DNA from: a virus
Reading direction: 5' to 3' (one strand)
IMG/VR virus record: IMGVR_UViG_3300027983_000133
Location: 1-22,072 of that record
Length of the DNA stretch: 22,072 bases
The notes under the pieces were generated by a model. It was not told the DNA's origin, did not search any database, and was given only the letters and a program-made list of their open reading frames with translations. The position numbers and the translations under genes are program-made. This document shows positions 1 through 6,000 of the stretch, piece by piece. Every line of letters begins with the position of its first letter. Within the stretch, counting starts at the first letter, position 1.

Positions 1-1749
1 GCGTTTGCGGAGTCGGAGAAGCCCACGCCTCAGCCCACGCCGCTGATCCAGTACGGCGACGATCGGCAGAAGAGCGCTCAAGAGAAGTACGCCGAAAAGG
101 CGCTTCAAAGCGCGGCGGCCGACATCCGGGCGCAGGGCAAAGGCAACCGCAACCCAGAGGCCCACAAACAGGCCTACTCGATTGGTGGTTACGTCGGCGC
201 CGGCGTGCTCGACGGGGTTTATGCGGGCCAGGTACTGACCGCGGCGATCCAGTCCGTTGTCGGGCCGGACCGCTACGCAAAGGAGGCGGACACCGTCCAG
301 CGCGGCATACTCGATGGCGCAGCCAACCCGCGCGACATGTCACGCATCGGGCTTGGGCGTGAGCCCCGAAGACACCGCCAAACGGAGGACGTCACGCATA
401 TTGACCACGCGCGAGAGGTCGAGGAAGCAACGACTTTGCTTGAGACCGCGACGACCGCTGCGGGGCGAAAGGCCGGCGCAAAGGCGCTCGGCATCGCTAA
501 GCGCAAAGAGAAAGCGGCGTCGGGCGGGTCGCCGATGTTCGTCGGCACCCGCGACGATGGGTCAAACCCGACCACACAAGAGAACGTCCGGGCATTGCTC
601 GACTTTTACGGCGTTGACTATCGGTATAACGCCATGTCGCGAGTGGTTGACATCAACATACCCGCGGCGGTCAGCGAGGGCGTCTTGTGCAATGCGCCCG
701 CGGCCGCTATCCGTCGGCTAGCGCGGAAACACGGCATCAAGGCGGACGCGCCAGCCTTTCGCGATGAGCTACTGCTCTACGGCGTCGACAATGCCTACCA
801 TCCCGTTGCTGACTGGATAAGGGCGACGCCTTGGGACGGCGTTGACCGTTTTGAGGCCCTTTGGGCGTCGATCGTCATCCGCGAAGAGGGGCTTGCGGAC
901 GTCGGGCTGTACCGCGCGATGCTTCGGGCGTGGCTCGTCGCAGGCGCGATGTGCGCGATGCTGCCGCTTGACTCGACGCGGGGCGTATCTACTCACGGCG
1001 TGTTGGTGCTCCAAGGGAAACAGGGGTGCGGAAAAACAACGTGGCTTACATCGCTGGTGCCGCGCAGGGGCGCTTGGATCAAAGACGGTGTATCCATTGA
1101 CCCGGCGCAAAAAGACAGCGTAGCGGGAGCCACTAGTAGCTGGCTGGTGGAGCTCGGGGAGTTGGACCAGACAGTGCGAAAGGCGGACATGGCCGGCCTC
1201 AAGGCGTTCATCACGGCCCCGGTGGACAGTTACCGCAGGCCCTACGCAGAGGCGTCGGAGGACCATCCGCGGCGCACCAACTTCGCGGCATCCGTCAACT
1301 CGGTTGAGTTTTTGAAGGACGACACCGGCAATAGACGGTTTTGGGTCTTGCCGATTGAGGCATGCATGTGGCGCGAGACGGAACCCAACAGCGTTGCGAG
1401 TATCGACTTGCAGCAACTCTGGGCACAGTTTGCCCAGCACGCCGTTGAGGGCGAGTTGCACGTCTTGGCTACCGAGTGGGACGTGGCGCAACGGGCGTCC
1501 GCCGAGCGCCATCGGATCGTAAACGCGACCGAGGACGAGCTAAAAGAGTTGTTTGAAGTAGACGTTGACGCACCGAAGGCGTTTTGGACGGCGACGTCTG
1601 CGATCTACTACGCGCTTTATCCGAACCGTGAGCCGCATCACTGGACGAGCCAGGAGAAGATGGGAGTATCAGTCTCCCTGAAGGCGATGGGCGCCGTGAG
1701 CGGTAACGGACGCTCCGGGCGAACATGGAGCGTCAAGCGGCGCATGTAG
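1..1749 (+). CDS. VapE/VirE-family primase-helicase, 5' truncated by window edge
   Basis: The reading frame is open from base 1 without a stop, so the gene starts before the window; 582 residues are visible. Residues 339-347 form a Walker A loop (GKQGCGKTT), 381-389 a Walker B-like strand (WLVELGELD), 401-415 the family segment KAFITAPVDSYRRPY, and 440-448 the arginine-finger-like DDTGNRRFW. This order and wording are characteristic of the virulence-associated E (PF05272) superfamily 3-type helicase domain. Residues around 60-75 (SIGGYVGAGVLDG) resemble the end of a primase C-terminal domain, so the missing N-terminus is probably a primase-polymerase. A GTG at 205 would give a shorter protein, but the upstream residues fit the family and it is not the likely start. 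Role by family: unwinding and priming of phage DNA at the origin. The repeat array directly downstream may be its target (inference). Confidence 0.9.
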   Translation, partial: AFAESEKPTPQPTPLIQYGDDRQKSAQEKYAEKALQSAAADIRAQGKGNRNPEAHKQAYSIGGYVGAGVLDGVYAGQVLTAAIQSVVGPDRYAKEADTVQRGILDGAANPRDMSRIGLGREPRRHRQTEDVTHIDHAREVEEATTLLETATTAAGRKAGAKALGIAKRKEKAASGGSPMFVGTRDDGSNPTTQENVRALLDFYGVDYRYNAMSRVVDINIPAAVSEGVLCNAPAAAIRRLARKHGIKADAPAFRDELLLYGVDNAYHPVADWIRATPWDGVDRFEALWASIVIREEGLADVGLYRAMLRAWLVAGAMCAMLPLDSTRGVSTHGVLVLQGKQGCGKTTWLTSLVPRRGAWIKDGVSIDPAQKDSVAGATSSWLVELGELDQTVRKADMAGLKAFITAPVDSYRRPYAEASEDHPRRTNFAASVNSVEFLKDDTGNRRFWVLPIEACMWRETEPNSVASIDLQQLWAQFAQHAVEGELHVLATEWDVAQRASAERHRIVNATEDELKELFEVDVDAPKAFWTATSAIYYALYPNREPHHWTSQEKMGVSVSLKAMGAVSGNGRSGRTWSVKRRM

Positions 1750-1755
1750 CTAGCG

Positions 1756-2032
1756 TGTTGACAGGTGTTGACAGGTGTTGACAGGTTCAACAACCTGTCA
1801 ACATCGACCAAACCCTTTAACAGTGCGGTCTATCTATACTCTGTAGACATGTTGACAGGTTATTTTATAAAAGAGTAGAGGGGGTGTAAATGAGGGGAAT
1901 AAGGGGGTAGTGATTCCGCGAGACCCCTCTATGGGAAAACCTGTCTACACCTGTCAACGTGTCAACATGTTGGCAAAAAACCAAATGAAAACACCATAAG
2001 CTTGTAGACACCCTTGGTCGGACCTGTCTACG
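1756..2032. repeat. Two-stranded iteron-like array, consensus TGTWGACAGGT
   Basis: Exact TGTTGACAGGT copies lie on the + strand at 1756-1766, 1766-1776, 1776-1786 (10-base period) and 1850-1860. Reverse-strand copies lie at 1793-1803 (exact), 1939-1949 (TGTAGACAGGT) and, with one mismatch, 1949-1959, 1957-1967 and 2022-2032. Weaker partial sites lie near 1842, 1968 and 2003. Between them are an AT-rich run (1861-1870) and a purine-rich G-tract stretch (about 1876-1910). A good -10-like TATACT sits at 1835-1840 between sites, but no convincing -35 was found. Repeats in both orientations plus an AT-rich element next to a primase-helicase fit a replication origin; a repressor operator cluster is the alternative. 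No credible gene lies in 1750-2216. Confidence 0.85.
1776..1803. repeat. Perfect 12-base inverted repeat inside the array
   Basis: The third tandem copy (1776-1787, TGTTGACAGGTT) and its exact reverse complement (1792-1803) face each other across a 4-base CAAC spacer. This makes the only perfect back-to-back pair of the array. It could be a dimer-binding operator, or it could extrude as a cruciform. There is no T-tract after it, so it is not a typical terminator of the preceding gene. Confidence 0.85.
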
Positions 2033-2053
2033 CCAGCCGATGAGAGGGCATTT

Positions 2054-2132
2054 TTGAAACAAAACGGTTCAAGTCTTGTTTCAAACGTTTCATCGGGTGA
2101 AACAAAATGATTCAAGGCCAATGATTTCAACG
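2054..2132. repeat. Second repeat cluster, TGAAAC/GTTTCA family
   Basis: A near-identical 18-base direct repeat (16 of 18 bases) occurs at 2056-2073 and 2099-2116, of form GAAACAAAAyGrTTCAAG. TTGAAACAA (2054-2062) and TTGTTTCAA (2076-2084) form a perfect 9-base inverted repeat with a 13-base spacer, and GTTTCA recurs at 2087-2092. The motif differs from the TGTTGACAGGT array just upstream, so it suggests a different DNA-binding protein. The cluster ends about 85 bases before the VRR-NUC start and could control the nuclease-ssb genes or be part of the origin (inference). No good -35/-10 pair was seen between 2133 and 2216. Confidence 0.7.
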
Positions 2133-2216: not shown

Positions 2217-2666
2217 ATGAGTAACCGCGAGGACTTCGTTCAGCACGCCATAGCGATGGTCCTAGACGAGATGGGCGTGTTCTGGCTGCATCCGCCGAAC
2301 GAGCGCGAAAAGCCGACGACTCCGCAAGAGCTCGGCAGACTGATCGCGAAAGGAATGAAGCCGGGCGCATCCGACGTCATGATCCTTCAGGCGCTGCCAG
2401 CCTATCCCAATGCTCGGGGCCTCATGCTCGAGCTGAAGACCGAGTCCGGCGCTCTCAGGCCGAACCAGCGGGCCTTTCTCGCACGGTCCGAGGACGCCGG
2501 GTTCCTCGCACGGACTGGCAAGGGAATCCCGGCATCCCTTCAAATCCTGCGAGATGTCGGGTTCGAAGTGGATTCGGCCTTGACGCGGTTGGACTCGCAG
2601 GGCTATACATTGTCCCTCTCGGGGATAAAAAAAGTCCCCACAAAAGACAAAAGTCCGAAACGGTGA
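2217..2666 (+). CDS. VRR-NUC domain nuclease (Holliday-junction-resolvase-like fold)
   Basis: The protein has 149 residues. The family signature is clear: KPGASDVMIL (about 48-57) carries the metal-binding aspartate, GLMLELKTESGALRPNQRAFL (about 68-88) carries the ELK pair followed by the conserved glutamine region, and GFLARTGKGI follows. These match the VRR-NUC (PF08774) subset of PD-(D/E)XK nucleases, stand-alone versions of which are common in phage replication modules. The family cleaves structured or branched DNA; its substrate here is not known. The ATG is preceded by a weak purine patch (AGGCAGGG). The last codons overlap the first of the two palindromes that flank ssb. It lies between the primase-helicase and ssb, consistent with a replication or recombination job. 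Confidence 0.87.
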   Translation: MSNREDFVQHAIAMVLDEMGVFWLHPPNEREKPTTPQELGRLIAKGMKPGASDVMILQALPAYPNARGLMLELKTESGALRPNQRAFLARSEDAGFLARTGKGIPASLQILRDVGFEVDSALTRLDSQGYTLSLSGIKKVPTKDKSPKR

Positions 2667-2709: not shown

Positions 2710-3249
2710 ATGTCGTTGAATAAAGCGATGATCATCGGGAATCTCGGGGCTGACCCCGAGACACGGGACGTGAACGGATCGATGGTCGCGACGCTGTCCG
2801 TGGCGACTTCCGAGAAGTGGACGGGCAAGGACGGGCAACGGCAAGAGAAGACAGAATGGCATCGAGTCGTCGTGTGGGACAAGCTCGCGGAGCTTTGTGA
2901 CCAGTACTTGCGCAAGGGCGCAAAGGTTTATATCGAGGGTAAAATCCAGACGCGAAGCTTCGACGACGCCAACGGCCAGAAGAAGTACTCGACGGAGATC
3001 GTGGCTCAGCGCGTCGAGTTCCTTGACGGCGCGGACGGCCGAAACGATGCCGACGGGCGAAACAATGCCGCGCAAGCCCCGGCCCCCGCTCAGGGCGGGT
3101 ATGGGCAACGGGCTCAAGCTCCGGCAACCGGGCAGCGGTCTCAGCCCCCCGCTCAAAGCGGATATGGTGGACAGCAGCGAACCCAAGCCCCGGCGCAAGG
3201 CGGGCAGCGGCCGCACAGGCCGAACAGCGATGATGACATTCCGTTTTGA
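2710..3249 (+). CDS. ssb: Single-stranded DNA-binding protein
   Basis: The 179-residue protein begins MSLNKAMIIGNLGADPETR, continues with TEWHRVVVWDKLAELCDQYLRKG and KVYIEGKIQTR in the OB-fold, and has a low-complexity tail (about 115-170) rich in Gln, Ala, Pro and Gly. It ends in the acidic tip DDDIPF, which in bacterial SSB proteins docks partner enzymes. Length and domain order are normal for a bacterial-type SSB. The start is supported by AAAGGAAAG just upstream. It would coat single-stranded DNA during phage replication, and its acidic tip suggests it can recruit host repair or replication partners. It is a single-gene unit with an operator-like palindrome on each side and a terminator after it, which suggests its own regulation. 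Confidence 0.96.
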   Translation: MSLNKAMIIGNLGADPETRDVNGSMVATLSVATSEKWTGKDGQRQEKTEWHRVVVWDKLAELCDQYLRKGAKVYIEGKIQTRSFDDANGQKKYSTEIVAQRVEFLDGADGRNDADGRNNAAQAPAPAQGGYGQRAQAPATGQRSQPPAQSGYGGQQRTQAPAQGGQRPHRPNSDDDIPF

Positions 3250-3270: not shown

Positions 3271-3296
3271 AAACAGTGAACATCCGTTCTCTGTTT
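3271..3296. promoter_or_regulatory. 26-base palindromic operator-like site downstream of ssb
   Basis: The arms AAACAGTGAAC and GTTCTCTGTTT surround ATCC, giving an almost perfect palindrome with a GAACatccGTTC core at 3278-3289. In the 29-base window 3268-3296 it matches 2655-2683 at 24 positions; all but one of the differences fall in the central spacer. It lies between the ssb stop and the terminator hairpin and before the HTH gene. It could be an operator for the downstream gene, a second site used for looping, or a recombination scar. Confidence 0.55.
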
Positions 3297-3297
3297 G

Positions 3298-3329
3298 AAC
3301 TGCCGAGGATTCCTCGGCAGTTGCCTTTT
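3298..3329 (+). terminator. Rho-independent terminator after ssb
   Basis: AACTGCCGAGGA (3298-3309) and TCCTCGGCAGTT (3311-3322) form a perfect 12-base stem, followed by GCCTTTTG. It begins directly after the second palindrome and ends the ssb transcript before the HTH gene. Confidence 0.85.
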
Positions 3330-3349
3330 GTCCCGGATTGAGACTTTTA

Positions 3350-3378
3350 TTGACTTTTGGCCGTGCATCCAGTCTGAT
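3350..3378 (+). promoter_or_regulatory. Candidate sigma-70-like promoter for the HTH gene
   Basis: TTGACT (3350-3355, 5 of 6 to the -35 consensus), a 17-base spacer and TCTGAT (3373-3378, 4 of 6 to the -10 consensus) lie right after the ssb terminator. The first good ATG of the next gene is only 6 bases beyond the -10, which would make the message leaderless or nearly so. The host sigma consensus is unknown, so this is tentative. Confidence 0.3.
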
Positions 3379-3384
3379 CCGCCC

Positions 3385-3756
3385 ATGGTCCGACGCAGCA
3401 AAATGGAATTGTGGTCGCGGTTGTCTCAGTGTGAGACGAGCACGCTTGAGTATCGCGTTTCGCAACTGGTACGCCAAATCGGGCTATCAGGGATCGGCGA
3501 GCTATGCGGTGTCGAGCCGCAAGAGGTTCGCGAATGGTTTGAGGTCCGATCGGTTCCACCGTCGTTTGATGCGATCCTGCGCGAGCGCGTTGAGGGTCTT
3601 GATTTCCTCAACCCGGCTAGCCTCGTCGAGGACTATCAGGATATGAAGGCCCAGGGTCTAAGCAACGTCGAGATTGCGGACCATCTGGGCGTTACGCGGC
3701 AGGCGGTCAGCAAGGGCCTGAAGGCTCGGGCGGCGCGGTCGTCTGACGGTGACTGA
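3385..3756 (+). CDS. Small DNA-binding protein with two helix-turn-helix segments
   Basis: The protein has 123 residues from the ATG at 3385. The frame can be extended to a TTG at 3295, but that start would lie inside the terminator stem; an ATG at 3403 is also possible. No Shine-Dalgarno precedes either ATG. Residues about 32-56 (IGLSGIGELCGVEPQEVREWF) look like a Cro/YdaS-type helix-turn-helix, and residues 84-113 (MKAQGLSNVEIADHLGVTRQAVSKGLKAR) like a second, sigma-region-4 or HTH_23 type. It lies between the ssb terminator and the packaging genes and overlaps the small terminase gene by 8 bases. It may control the late genes or take part in packaging-site recognition; no specific family was recognised. 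Confidence 0.7.
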   Translation: MVRRSKMELWSRLSQCETSTLEYRVSQLVRQIGLSGIGELCGVEPQEVREWFEVRSVPPSFDAILRERVEGLDFLNPASLVEDYQDMKAQGLSNVEIADHLGVTRQAVSKGLKARAARSSDGD

Positions 3757-4543
3757 ACAAAGTCGTCCAATGCCTGGGCCGCGGACTCGACCCAAGCCCA
3801 AAGCGGCCAAGGAGCCAAAGCGACCCAAAGCGCCGGCCTCTCTGGACGAGGCTCTAGCGATCGAGGCCAGCAATGCTCAGCGCGCTAAGGCATTGCGCGA
3901 TGAGGTTAAGTCGACGACGGCGCCGACCCACAAGCGCGGCTCGTTCGATCCTGCCAAGCGCGAGGCATTAATCGCCGCGGTCCGAAAGGGCCTGTCTCTG
4001 TCCTATGGGTGCCGGCTCATCGGCATCACGAACCAGGTCGCATATGTATGGTTAAGGCGCGGCTCGATCGCCCTCGGCGAGCCGGGCCACAGGCCCGAGT
4101 ACGCTCAGTTTGCCAGCGACTTTCGCCGGGCAGAGGCTGAAAAGGTCGCCGAGCTGCTAGACCATGCATCGCTTCAATCAACCACAGACCATCGGGCGAC
4201 GAAGACGTTGCTCGATATGCTGGACCGGCGTCAGGGGATGGCGCAGCGGCAAAAGGCCGAGACCATCGCGCTTGCCAAGCAACAGACGGAGCTCGCCATC
4301 GCTCAAGAGCAACTGCGGATGGCGCGGATGAAGGGCGACGCAACCGAGGCGGCGATTAAGACGGGCGGACAGGCAATGATCGTAATTGGGATCTCAGCGT
4401 TCCTCGAAAGCTCCGACCTTTCGCCTGAAATCAAGGGCCAGATCATCGCCTCAATCGGTCGAGCGGGCGGCACGGCGATCGCACGGCGAGATCTAGGTGC
4501 CGAGCCCGACAGGTCCGACGGGTCCGACGGGTCCGACCGATGA
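3749..4543 (+). CDS. terS: Terminase small subunit (probable)
   Basis: The 264-residue protein uses a GTG start overlapping the previous stop; an ATG at 3770 is an alternative. A Lys/Arg/Pro-rich leader (1-60) precedes a helix-turn-helix at about 66-106 (KREALIAAVRKGLSLSYGCRL, then TNQVAYVWLRRG) and the segment RPEYAQFASDFRRAEAEKVAELL (about 115-138), a layout typical of small terminases. A Gln/Ala/Glu-rich helical stretch (about 165-195) may mediate ring oligomerisation. The C-terminus ends in a DRSDGSDGSDR repeat tract. It would bind the packaging site and hand DNA to the large subunit. The assignment rests on the helix-turn-helix layout and on its 4-base overlap with the large terminase gene. 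Confidence 0.75.
   Translation: MTEQSRPMPGPRTRPKPKAAKEPKRPKAPASLDEALAIEASNAQRAKALRDEVKSTTAPTHKRGSFDPAKREALIAAVRKGLSLSYGCRLIGITNQVAYVWLRRGSIALGEPGHRPEYAQFASDFRRAEAEKVAELLDHASLQSTTDHRATKTLLDMLDRRQGMAQRQKAETIALAKQQTELAIAQEQLRMARMKGDATEAAIKTGGQAMIVIGISAFLESSDLSPEIKGQIIASIGRAGGTAIARRDLGAEPDRSDGSDGSDR
4512..4538 (+). repeat. Three 9-base tandem units at the end of the small terminase gene
   Basis: GGTCCGACG is repeated at 4512-4520 and 4521-4529, with a third copy at 4530-4538 that differs only in its last base. In frame it encodes the Ser-Asp-Gly tail of the small terminase and stops one base before the large terminase ATG. It probably arose by replication slippage. Confidence 0.8.
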
Positions 4544-6000
4544 CGCTAAGCCATGAACCAGCGGTCGACACCGCACCGCAAAAGGTCAAGTTCTACCCGA
4601 CGAACTATGCGCCGCACAGGGCGCAGCGTCGCGCGCACAGGGCGCTGAGGCTCGCTCGCTTCATCGTGCTGGTTGCCGGCCGCCGTGGCGGGAAAACGAA
4701 ATGCGGCGGGGGCATATTTGTTGACCGCATGCTCAAAGATCTTGAGGCGTGGTCAGCGATCAATGGCGCATGGCAACGAGGCGCGGGCAAGGCTCCAACC
4801 CCGTCCGTCCAGTACATGGTTGTCGCTCCGGTCTACGCGCTCCTCGAAGAGCCGCGCAGTGCGTTACAGAAATATCTCGGCGGCATGGTCGCCGAAGGCG
4901 GTCTCATCGTCCATCAGAGCGACCAGACATGGTGGCTCGTCGAGGGCGTGCGGATCGACTTCCGAAGCGGCGAGCATCCCAAAAGACTCGTAAGCCAAGG
5001 GCTCAACGGGATCTGGCTAGAGGAAGCGGCACGCCTCAAGCCCGAGGTCTGGATCGACAACCTCCGCCCAGCGCTCTCGGATAAACTCGGCTGGTGCATT
5101 TTCACATCAACGCCGCTCGGCAAAAACTGGCTGTGGCGTGAGATCTGGGCCAAGGCCGACCCGTCCGCGGCGGCCGAACTCGGCATGATCGACGGCCTAA
5201 ACCCGAACGACATCCTCGATGCGAACTACTGCGGGATCTCGTGGACCACGGCCGATAACGACGCGCTTACCCACCTTGCTGAAGAGATGGAGCTCGCACG
5301 TCGGACTATGCCTTACGCGTTCTTCGCGCGTAACTATCTGGCATCATTCGAGACTTTCGTTGGTCAGCTGTTTCAACTCGACCGGCATCGTCATTTCACA
5401 TCGGATCCAGCGCCCTCGTTCGCAGAGTCGCGGCGCAAGTTCGTTGGCGGCGATCTCGGGACACGGCATAAGTCGAGCTTCACGCTCATCGTCGAGGGCC
5501 GCGAGTCGCCCAAACCCATTTGGCATGAGGTCGAGACAGACGCCGCGTCTGACATTCTATTTGACGAGCATCATTCATGGGAGGCTCGTCGGCGAGGCGA
5601 CCGAGGCTCTTGGACGGCCCGCGTTTGGCGGATCCTTCGGGATTACGCGGGCGAGAGCGGATGGCGGTCGATCCCGGTATTTTTGCCGGCGGATCGGCCC
5701 GAGGTCAAGCGGCAGTTCGAGGCGCGCGGCTTCAAGGTTATGGAAGCATTTCAACGGCATGACCCGGCTGTTGACTTCTTCTCCGTCCTGTTTGCTGTTG
5801 ACCGGATCAAGATCAGGTCGGCGAACCTGTGGCGATGCGTCGAAGCGCTGCACACACCGGAAGTCGGCAAAAACTCAACGAAAGTTTGGGTCGACGAAGA
5901 CGACGACGAGTTCGACGGCCTTCGATACGCGCTCAGCGACCCGATCAGGCTCGGCGAGAGCCCGGCTCGCAACGCGATGACCGCGCTCGGATGGCGGTGA
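4540..6000 (+). CDS. terL: Terminase large subunit (packaging ATPase-nuclease)
   Basis: The protein has 486 residues. ATPase half: Walker A AGRRGGKT at 46-53, Walker B IWLEEA at 158-163 with the catalytic glutamate pair, and coupling motif FTSTPLGKNW at 188-197. RNase H-like nuclease half: GGDLG with Asp305 as the likely first metal ligand, and the late motif DEFDGLRYAL with Asp459 as the likely last ligand. Order and spacing are those of phage large terminases. It powers DNA translocation into the prohead through the portal and cuts the concatemer. The ATG overlaps the small-subunit stop (ATGA), which implies translational coupling. The end of the gene carries a 15-base segment repeated 40 bases downstream, in the gap before the portal start. 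Confidence 0.95.
   Translation: MTLSHEPAVDTAPQKVKFYPTNYAPHRAQRRAHRALRLARFIVLVAGRRGGKTKCGGGIFVDRMLKDLEAWSAINGAWQRGAGKAPTPSVQYMVVAPVYALLEEPRSALQKYLGGMVAEGGLIVHQSDQTWWLVEGVRIDFRSGEHPKRLVSQGLNGIWLEEAARLKPEVWIDNLRPALSDKLGWCIFTSTPLGKNWLWREIWAKADPSAAAELGMIDGLNPNDILDANYCGISWTTADNDALTHLAEEMELARRTMPYAFFARNYLASFETFVGQLFQLDRHRHFTSDPAPSFAESRRKFVGGDLGTRHKSSFTLIVEGRESPKPIWHEVETDAASDILFDEHHSWEARRRGDRGSWTARVWRILRDYAGESGWRSIPVFLPADRPEVKRQFEARGFKVMEAFQRHDPAVDFFSVLFAVDRIKIRSANLWRCVEALHTPEVGKNSTKVWVDEDDDEFDGLRYALSDPIRLGESPARNAMTALGWR

Follow-up and report, generated by a model that had tools for sequence, protein, structure and literature searches.

The window, i.e., the whole stretch of 22,072 bp analyzed here, is the IMG/VR virus record IMGVR_UViG_3300027983_000133. 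It opens inside a VapE-type primase-helicase gene, followed by genes encoding a VRR-NUC-like nuclease, a single-strand DNA-binding protein (SSB), an HTH ORF (3295-3756), the small and large terminase subunits (TerS and TerL, 3749-6000), the portal, a Mu F-like protein, the major head and the tape-measure proteins (Table 1). The presence of terminase, portal, major head and tape-measure genes identifies the carrier as a tailed phage and not as a PICI satellite. The VapE product belongs to the VapE-like proteins, its PF05272 domain scoring 151 bits against a gathering cutoff of 25; it also matches phrog_1313 (DNA helicase) and, at the profile level, the PDB entry 7pds, "Similar to D. nodosus vapE" (E=1e-45). 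The VRR-NUC-like gene is the downstream flank expected for the module, and VRR_NUC genes are also found 3′ of VapE in relatives.

Table 1. Coordinates of the features discussed in the text; positions refer to the window, except in the last five lines, where they refer to the viral contig named.
Feature	Position	Strand	Remarks
VapE-type primase-helicase gene	1-1749	+	5′ end missing at contig edge; PF05272 E=4e-44
Sequence encoding the C-terminal winged helix predicted in VapE (residues ~529-582)	1585-1746	+	Proposed iteron reader; AlphaFold2
Iteron copy TGTTGACAGGT	1756-1766	+
Iteron copy TGTTGACAGGT	1766-1776	+
Iteron copy TGTTGACAGGT	1776-1786	+
Iteron copy TGTTGACAGGT	1793-1803	-
Iteron copy TGTAGACATGT	1842-1852	+	1 mismatch
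Iteron copy TGTTGACAGGT	1850-1860	+
Core between iteron sets	1861-1938		Candidate melting site; 55.1% AT vs 39.1% for the contig
Iteron copy TGTAGACAGGT	1939-1949	-
Iteron copy CGTTGACAGGT	1949-1959	-	1 mismatch
Iteron copy TGTTGACACGT	1957-1967	-	1 mismatch
Looser 8-mer TGTTGGCA	1968	+
Degenerate iteron, 8-mer TGTAGACA	2003-2010	+	8-mer exact, different flank
Iteron copy CGTAGACAGGT	2022-2032	-	1 mismatch
Second AT-rich repeat cluster, TGAAACAAAA..TTCAAG	2053-2130		Direct and inverted; 65.4% AT
VRR-NUC-like nuclease gene	2217-2666	+	PF08774 E=0.003, under gathering score; phrog_824 E=2e-14
Single-strand DNA-binding protein gene	2710-3249	+	PF00436 E=2e-35
TGTWGACA array past a helicase/primase gene, L065	2902-3037
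TGTWGACA array past a helicase/primase gene, L036	13014-13295
TGTWGACA array past a helicase/primase gene, L052	2603-2834
TGTWGACA array past a helicase/primase gene, L057	1895-2146
TGTWGACA array past a helicase/primase gene, L059	29-249

The VapE and VRR-NUC-like genes are separated by the longest intergenic gap of the contig (1750-2216, 467 bp), which contains no plausible gene. Seven bp past the VapE stop, whose last base is 1749, begins an array of the word TGTWGACAGGT. Allowing at most one mismatch, this word occurs at ten places, six of them exact, on both strands, and every one of them falls inside 1756-2032. Dinucleotide shuffles of the whole window gave a mean of 0.2 copies (maximum 4), and 1000 shuffles of the 467 bp of the gap gave a mean of 0.025 (maximum 1). 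The original prediction, which counted at least eight two-stranded copies within 277 bases directly 3′ of the primase-helicase gene and saw no gene of the region's own, is thus borne out, as is its description of three copies in perfect 10-base register (1756, 1766 and 1776). Close neighbors in the window are spaced by 10, 10, 8, 10 and 8 bp.

The copies form two sets, 1756-1860 and 1939-2032. The AT-rich element and the G-tract stretch described at the outset are both real: the intervening core reaches 87.5% AT over 1861-1876 (16 bp) and continues with purine-rich G tracts, which lie between the two repeat sets. Furthermore, when the contig is scanned in 60-bp steps of sequence, the highest AT content (66.7%) falls in the gap, in segments with starts near 1816-1831 and 2051. 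Directly 3′ of the iteron array, the second repeat cluster consists of the words TGAAACAAAACGGTTCAAG / TGAAACAAAATGATTCAAG plus the inverted TTGTTTCAA; it includes a 19-nt repeat pair at 2055/2098 that is 89% identical and a 13-nt inverted pair at 2053/2073, and is possibly part of the origin proposed below. No Rfam match was found, and no intrinsic terminator in 1600-2400.

A single-protein search of viral contigs with the window VapE confirmed no relatives, a megablast of phages gave no match, and phage and plasmid sequences, queried by blastn with the array, gave only chance-level matches. Relatives were compared on a set gathered by protein search only, blind to the motif, and arrays were sought de novo, as any 7-mer found on both strands just past the VapE stop at least five times and exceeding 40 dinucleotide shuffles. 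In the L019-type VapE subfamily, 75 of 90 loci have such an array directly past the end of the VapE gene, as against 2 of 270 background windows. In the window's own subfamily the figure is 29 of 79 (background, 5 of 240 random windows); the remaining 50 loci, named Jilinvirus-type phages among them, carry no such array after VapE, which counts against the origin reading. The words are diverse, including ATGTGGG, GGTGTCA, GTGACAT, CTGACAG, GTTGCAC, TGTTACA and GGTAACG, as well as GGTTGACA, GGTTTACA, TGTAGACA and TGGATACC. The closest relative, L139, has ten copies of ATGTGGG around a TATATA stretch and then a VRR_NUC (PF08774) gene. The order VapE, gap, VRR_NUC is also annotated in Enterococcus phiFL4A, and the order VapE, gap, nuclease (annotated as "nuclease" or "endonuclease") in Paenibacillus Pd_22F, Acutalibacter Fontainebleau and Corynebacterium Adelaide; the gaps of all four contain an array of their own, as judged by eye and by count. 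In 70 of 98 relatives the copies flank the most AT-rich 50 bp on both sides, with opposite orientation in 42 of these 70, which is likewise counted against the origin reading.

The check suggested at the outset was a search for the same array beside VapE-like genes in relatives. Arrays do recur in the same place, and the exact word is absent, with 0 copies within 600 bp downstream of VapE in the 80 nearest viral-contig relatives. The placement (VapE, array, VRR-NUC) is conserved and the spelling is not, so that a conservation test confined to the motif would have wrongly led to the rejection of an origin. The loci compared show arrays 3′ of VapE to be a general feature of VapE phages. The 10-base phasing turned out to be a local trait, since the same-strand iteron spacing in VapE loci (L303-L379) peaks at 9, 8 and 12 bp, 9 bp being the commonest, and 10 bp accounts for just 5%.

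In turn, the word itself was followed in other settings. Two copies of TGTWGACA at 10-bp spacing occur in at least 120 stretches of viral contigs, 28 of which, among the matches listed, have at least 4 copies per 500 bp; the pattern read backwards, scanned to completion, gave 64 stretches, of which 3 have such clusters. Several arrays lie directly past the stop of a primase or helicase gene, of various kinds: VapE (L019), DUF5906 (L065 and L052), DUF927 with a Cch-type HTH (L036), PriCT_2 (L057) and a primase (L059). This suggests that the word recurs across non-homologous initiators (DUF5906, DUF927, PriCT_2, primase). Other TGTWGACA arrays adjoin terminase or tail genes; the setting cannot be told from the word by itself. 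A protein common to all TGTWGACA-array contigs was sought and none emerged, VapE being present in 6 of 33, DUF5906-type proteins in 5 and PrimPol in 3.

PrimPol-DnaB_C genes with repeat arrays in the coding sequence were seen at L021:1531-3099, L028:1768-3312, L102:4875-6497, L291:1498-3180 and L292:1513-3621; the arrays in the first three are those of the TGTWGACA scan. Among named viruses, L102 is most closely related to the archaeal MetMV and vir555; in their genes other words recur, CGACCAC six times and CAGTTGA eight times (raw counts). Contigs with a TGTWGACA cluster also carry intein and Hint domains, in the terminase large subunit at L123:5589-8072 and, at L125:6542-10583, in a pair of neighboring ORFs that also has a LAGLIDADG domain.

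Which protein would read the repeats? The AlphaFold2 model of the window VapE ends in a winged-helix block (pLDDT 82-91) made up of helices 532-539 and 550-562 and strands 567-570 and 573-580, and its best PDB fold match is the SaPI initiator PriRep1 with dsDNA, 7pds (E 3e-18), also matched by the model of the L284 VapE (E 4e-37). The window VapE is accordingly predicted to load itself as a helicase and to bind DNA through a domain at its C terminus. Among relatives, the VapE proteins of L284 and L289 are 94.6% identical, yet their arrays are TGTAGACA and GGTTGACA, respectively; those of L285 and L290 are 95.5% identical, yet the arrays are GGTTTACA and GGTTGACA. Over the last 120 columns the identity drops to 83.5% and 80.9%. 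This part contains the wing motif RFGPYGxQ, where x, residue 811 of L284, is L, R, I or K in these four proteins. In the L284 model, residues 803 and 811 both map to the hairpin that follows helix 781-793, the last one. Under the broader proposition weighed further below, their combinations would go with the word: N with R or K for GGTTGACA, T with I for GGTTTACA, and S with L for TGTAGACA.

When residue 811 was compared with the word class across 50 loci of the L019-type subfamily, it ranked first among 583 variable columns (z 9.9, the next being 5.7), and first once more, among 564 columns, after removal of every sequence used to spot it (z 7.4). The same association in neighbor proteins reached maxima of 4.1 (VRR_NUC) and 4.8 (helicase), and no iteron overlaps codon 811. 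In the independent set minus the TGTTACA clade, the residue drops to 12th of 548; among 25 disjoint nearest pairs, used to control for relatedness, its rank is 16th of 552, with p=0.012 uncorrected. Four disjoint GTTGAC-vs-GTTTAC pairs have residues K/I, R/I, Q/I and R/A, two of these pairs involving discovery sequences. Altogether, these comparisons make VapE the probable reader of the array, and the role of residue 811 as determinant of the word is suggestive, not established. The wing association concerns a VapE subfamily other than the window's, with a C-terminal sequence that differs from that of the window VapE.

SaPI Rep recognizes iterons directly downstream of its own gene through its C-terminal domain (PMC7581432), and PICI origins, found just 3′ of the initiator gene, invariably comprise an AT-rich region with an iteron set on either side and drive plasmid replication (PMC6092414). 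The window has the same arrangement: the array lies immediately 3′ of the gene of the proposed initiator helicase, and two sets of short iterons flank an AT-rich region, with the caveat of the G tracts in the core. The candidate origin of the original prediction gains strong comparative support from this layout, from the arrays found 3′ of VapE in many unrelated phages, and from the profile and fold match to PriRep1. Also counted against it are these findings: the core is only 55% AT and holds G tracts, and the cumulative-skew check that had been suggested revealed no GC-skew switch at the array (0.084 before the gap, 0.054 after). On balance, the array is very probably an iteron-type replication origin of the phage, with a SaPI/PICI-like layout and VapE as the proposed initiator. 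VapE, which combines a self-loading AAA+ helicase with a primase part at its N terminus, would use its C-terminal winged helix to bind the TGTWGACAGGT iterons; once it has assembled on both sets, melting of the AT-rich stretch that they enclose, loading of helicase hexamers and the start of replication would follow. Binding, melting, helicase loading and origin activity are what we infer from the comparisons above.

Three other readings of the array were weighed. As an operator cluster, without origin role, the array would be bound by a phage repressor or by VapE and would control the VRR-NUC, SSB and later genes. It does precede the next gene block, a promoter-like site (10/12, minus strand) lies at 1890-1862, and the TTGACA within the iteron resembles a -35 hexamer. 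However, at least ten sites over 277 bp would be unusually many, no repressor gene adjoins them (the nearest HTH ORF sits beside the small terminase gene), and arrays hold the same place in phages of many hosts while the word varies with a VapE residue, all of which makes the operator unlikely; autoregulation by VapE may exist alongside the origin function. A packaging site (cos or pac) bound by the small terminase is highly improbable: the terminase genes do lie close, TerS being encoded 1.7 kb downstream, and some TGTWGACA arrays elsewhere adjoin terminase genes (L032, L099, L111 and L126), but in the relatives gathered blind to the motif the arrays go with the VapE stop and the VRR_NUC gene. 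Finally, the first three copies form a perfect tandem, as if produced by slippage, and a repeat expansion devoid of function would account for them; it is barely credible for an array whose copies are on both strands and scattered over 277 bp, and the unrelated words in the same place in distant phages cannot have arisen from one expansion.

Returning to the origin reading, we hold as evenly balanced the broader proposition that the SaPI/PICI layout is the general origin of VapE tailed phages across phyla, in which wing and word switch together, so that close relatives sort into groups of different origin specificity that depend mainly on one or two wing residues. The layout itself is already published and is found here in a tailed phage. 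No paper describing an iteron origin of a VapE phage was found in the open-access literature, the part searched, and this absence is weak evidence of novelty. For this phage the data single out a concrete predicted origin, and for many VapE phages they supply a simple rule for locating one, namely to seek repeats of any spelling just past the VapE stop. Furthermore, near-identical helicases with different words constitute a ready test set for how initiators change origin specificity, and for asking if phages and satellites that share a cell steer clear of each other's origins or make use of them.

Several known systems share elements of this organization. The alpha protein of phage P4 is a primase, helicase and initiator that binds decameric iterons on both strands (ori/crr); P4 differs from the window in its iteron sequence, in having two separated loci and in being a satellite phage. 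The archaeal plasmid pRN1, whose replication gene is orf904, needs sequence downstream of that gene for its minimal replicon and has a different replication protein (PMC4234260). In SCCmec, Cch2 is likewise a self-loading helicase whose C-terminal domain binds repeats downstream of its gene, but the helicase is of the D5_N type, there are only three 5-nt iterons (AAGTG direct repeats), and the carrier is an SCC element and not a phage (PMC7581432). The SaPI/PICI origins share with the window a VapE-fold initiator helicase, an origin 3′ of its gene, two iteron sets around an AT-rich core and a C-terminal DNA-binding domain (PMC6092414; PMC7581432; 7pds), whereas they belong to satellite islands and not to a tailed phage, their iteron word is different, and the origin role in the window is a predicted one.
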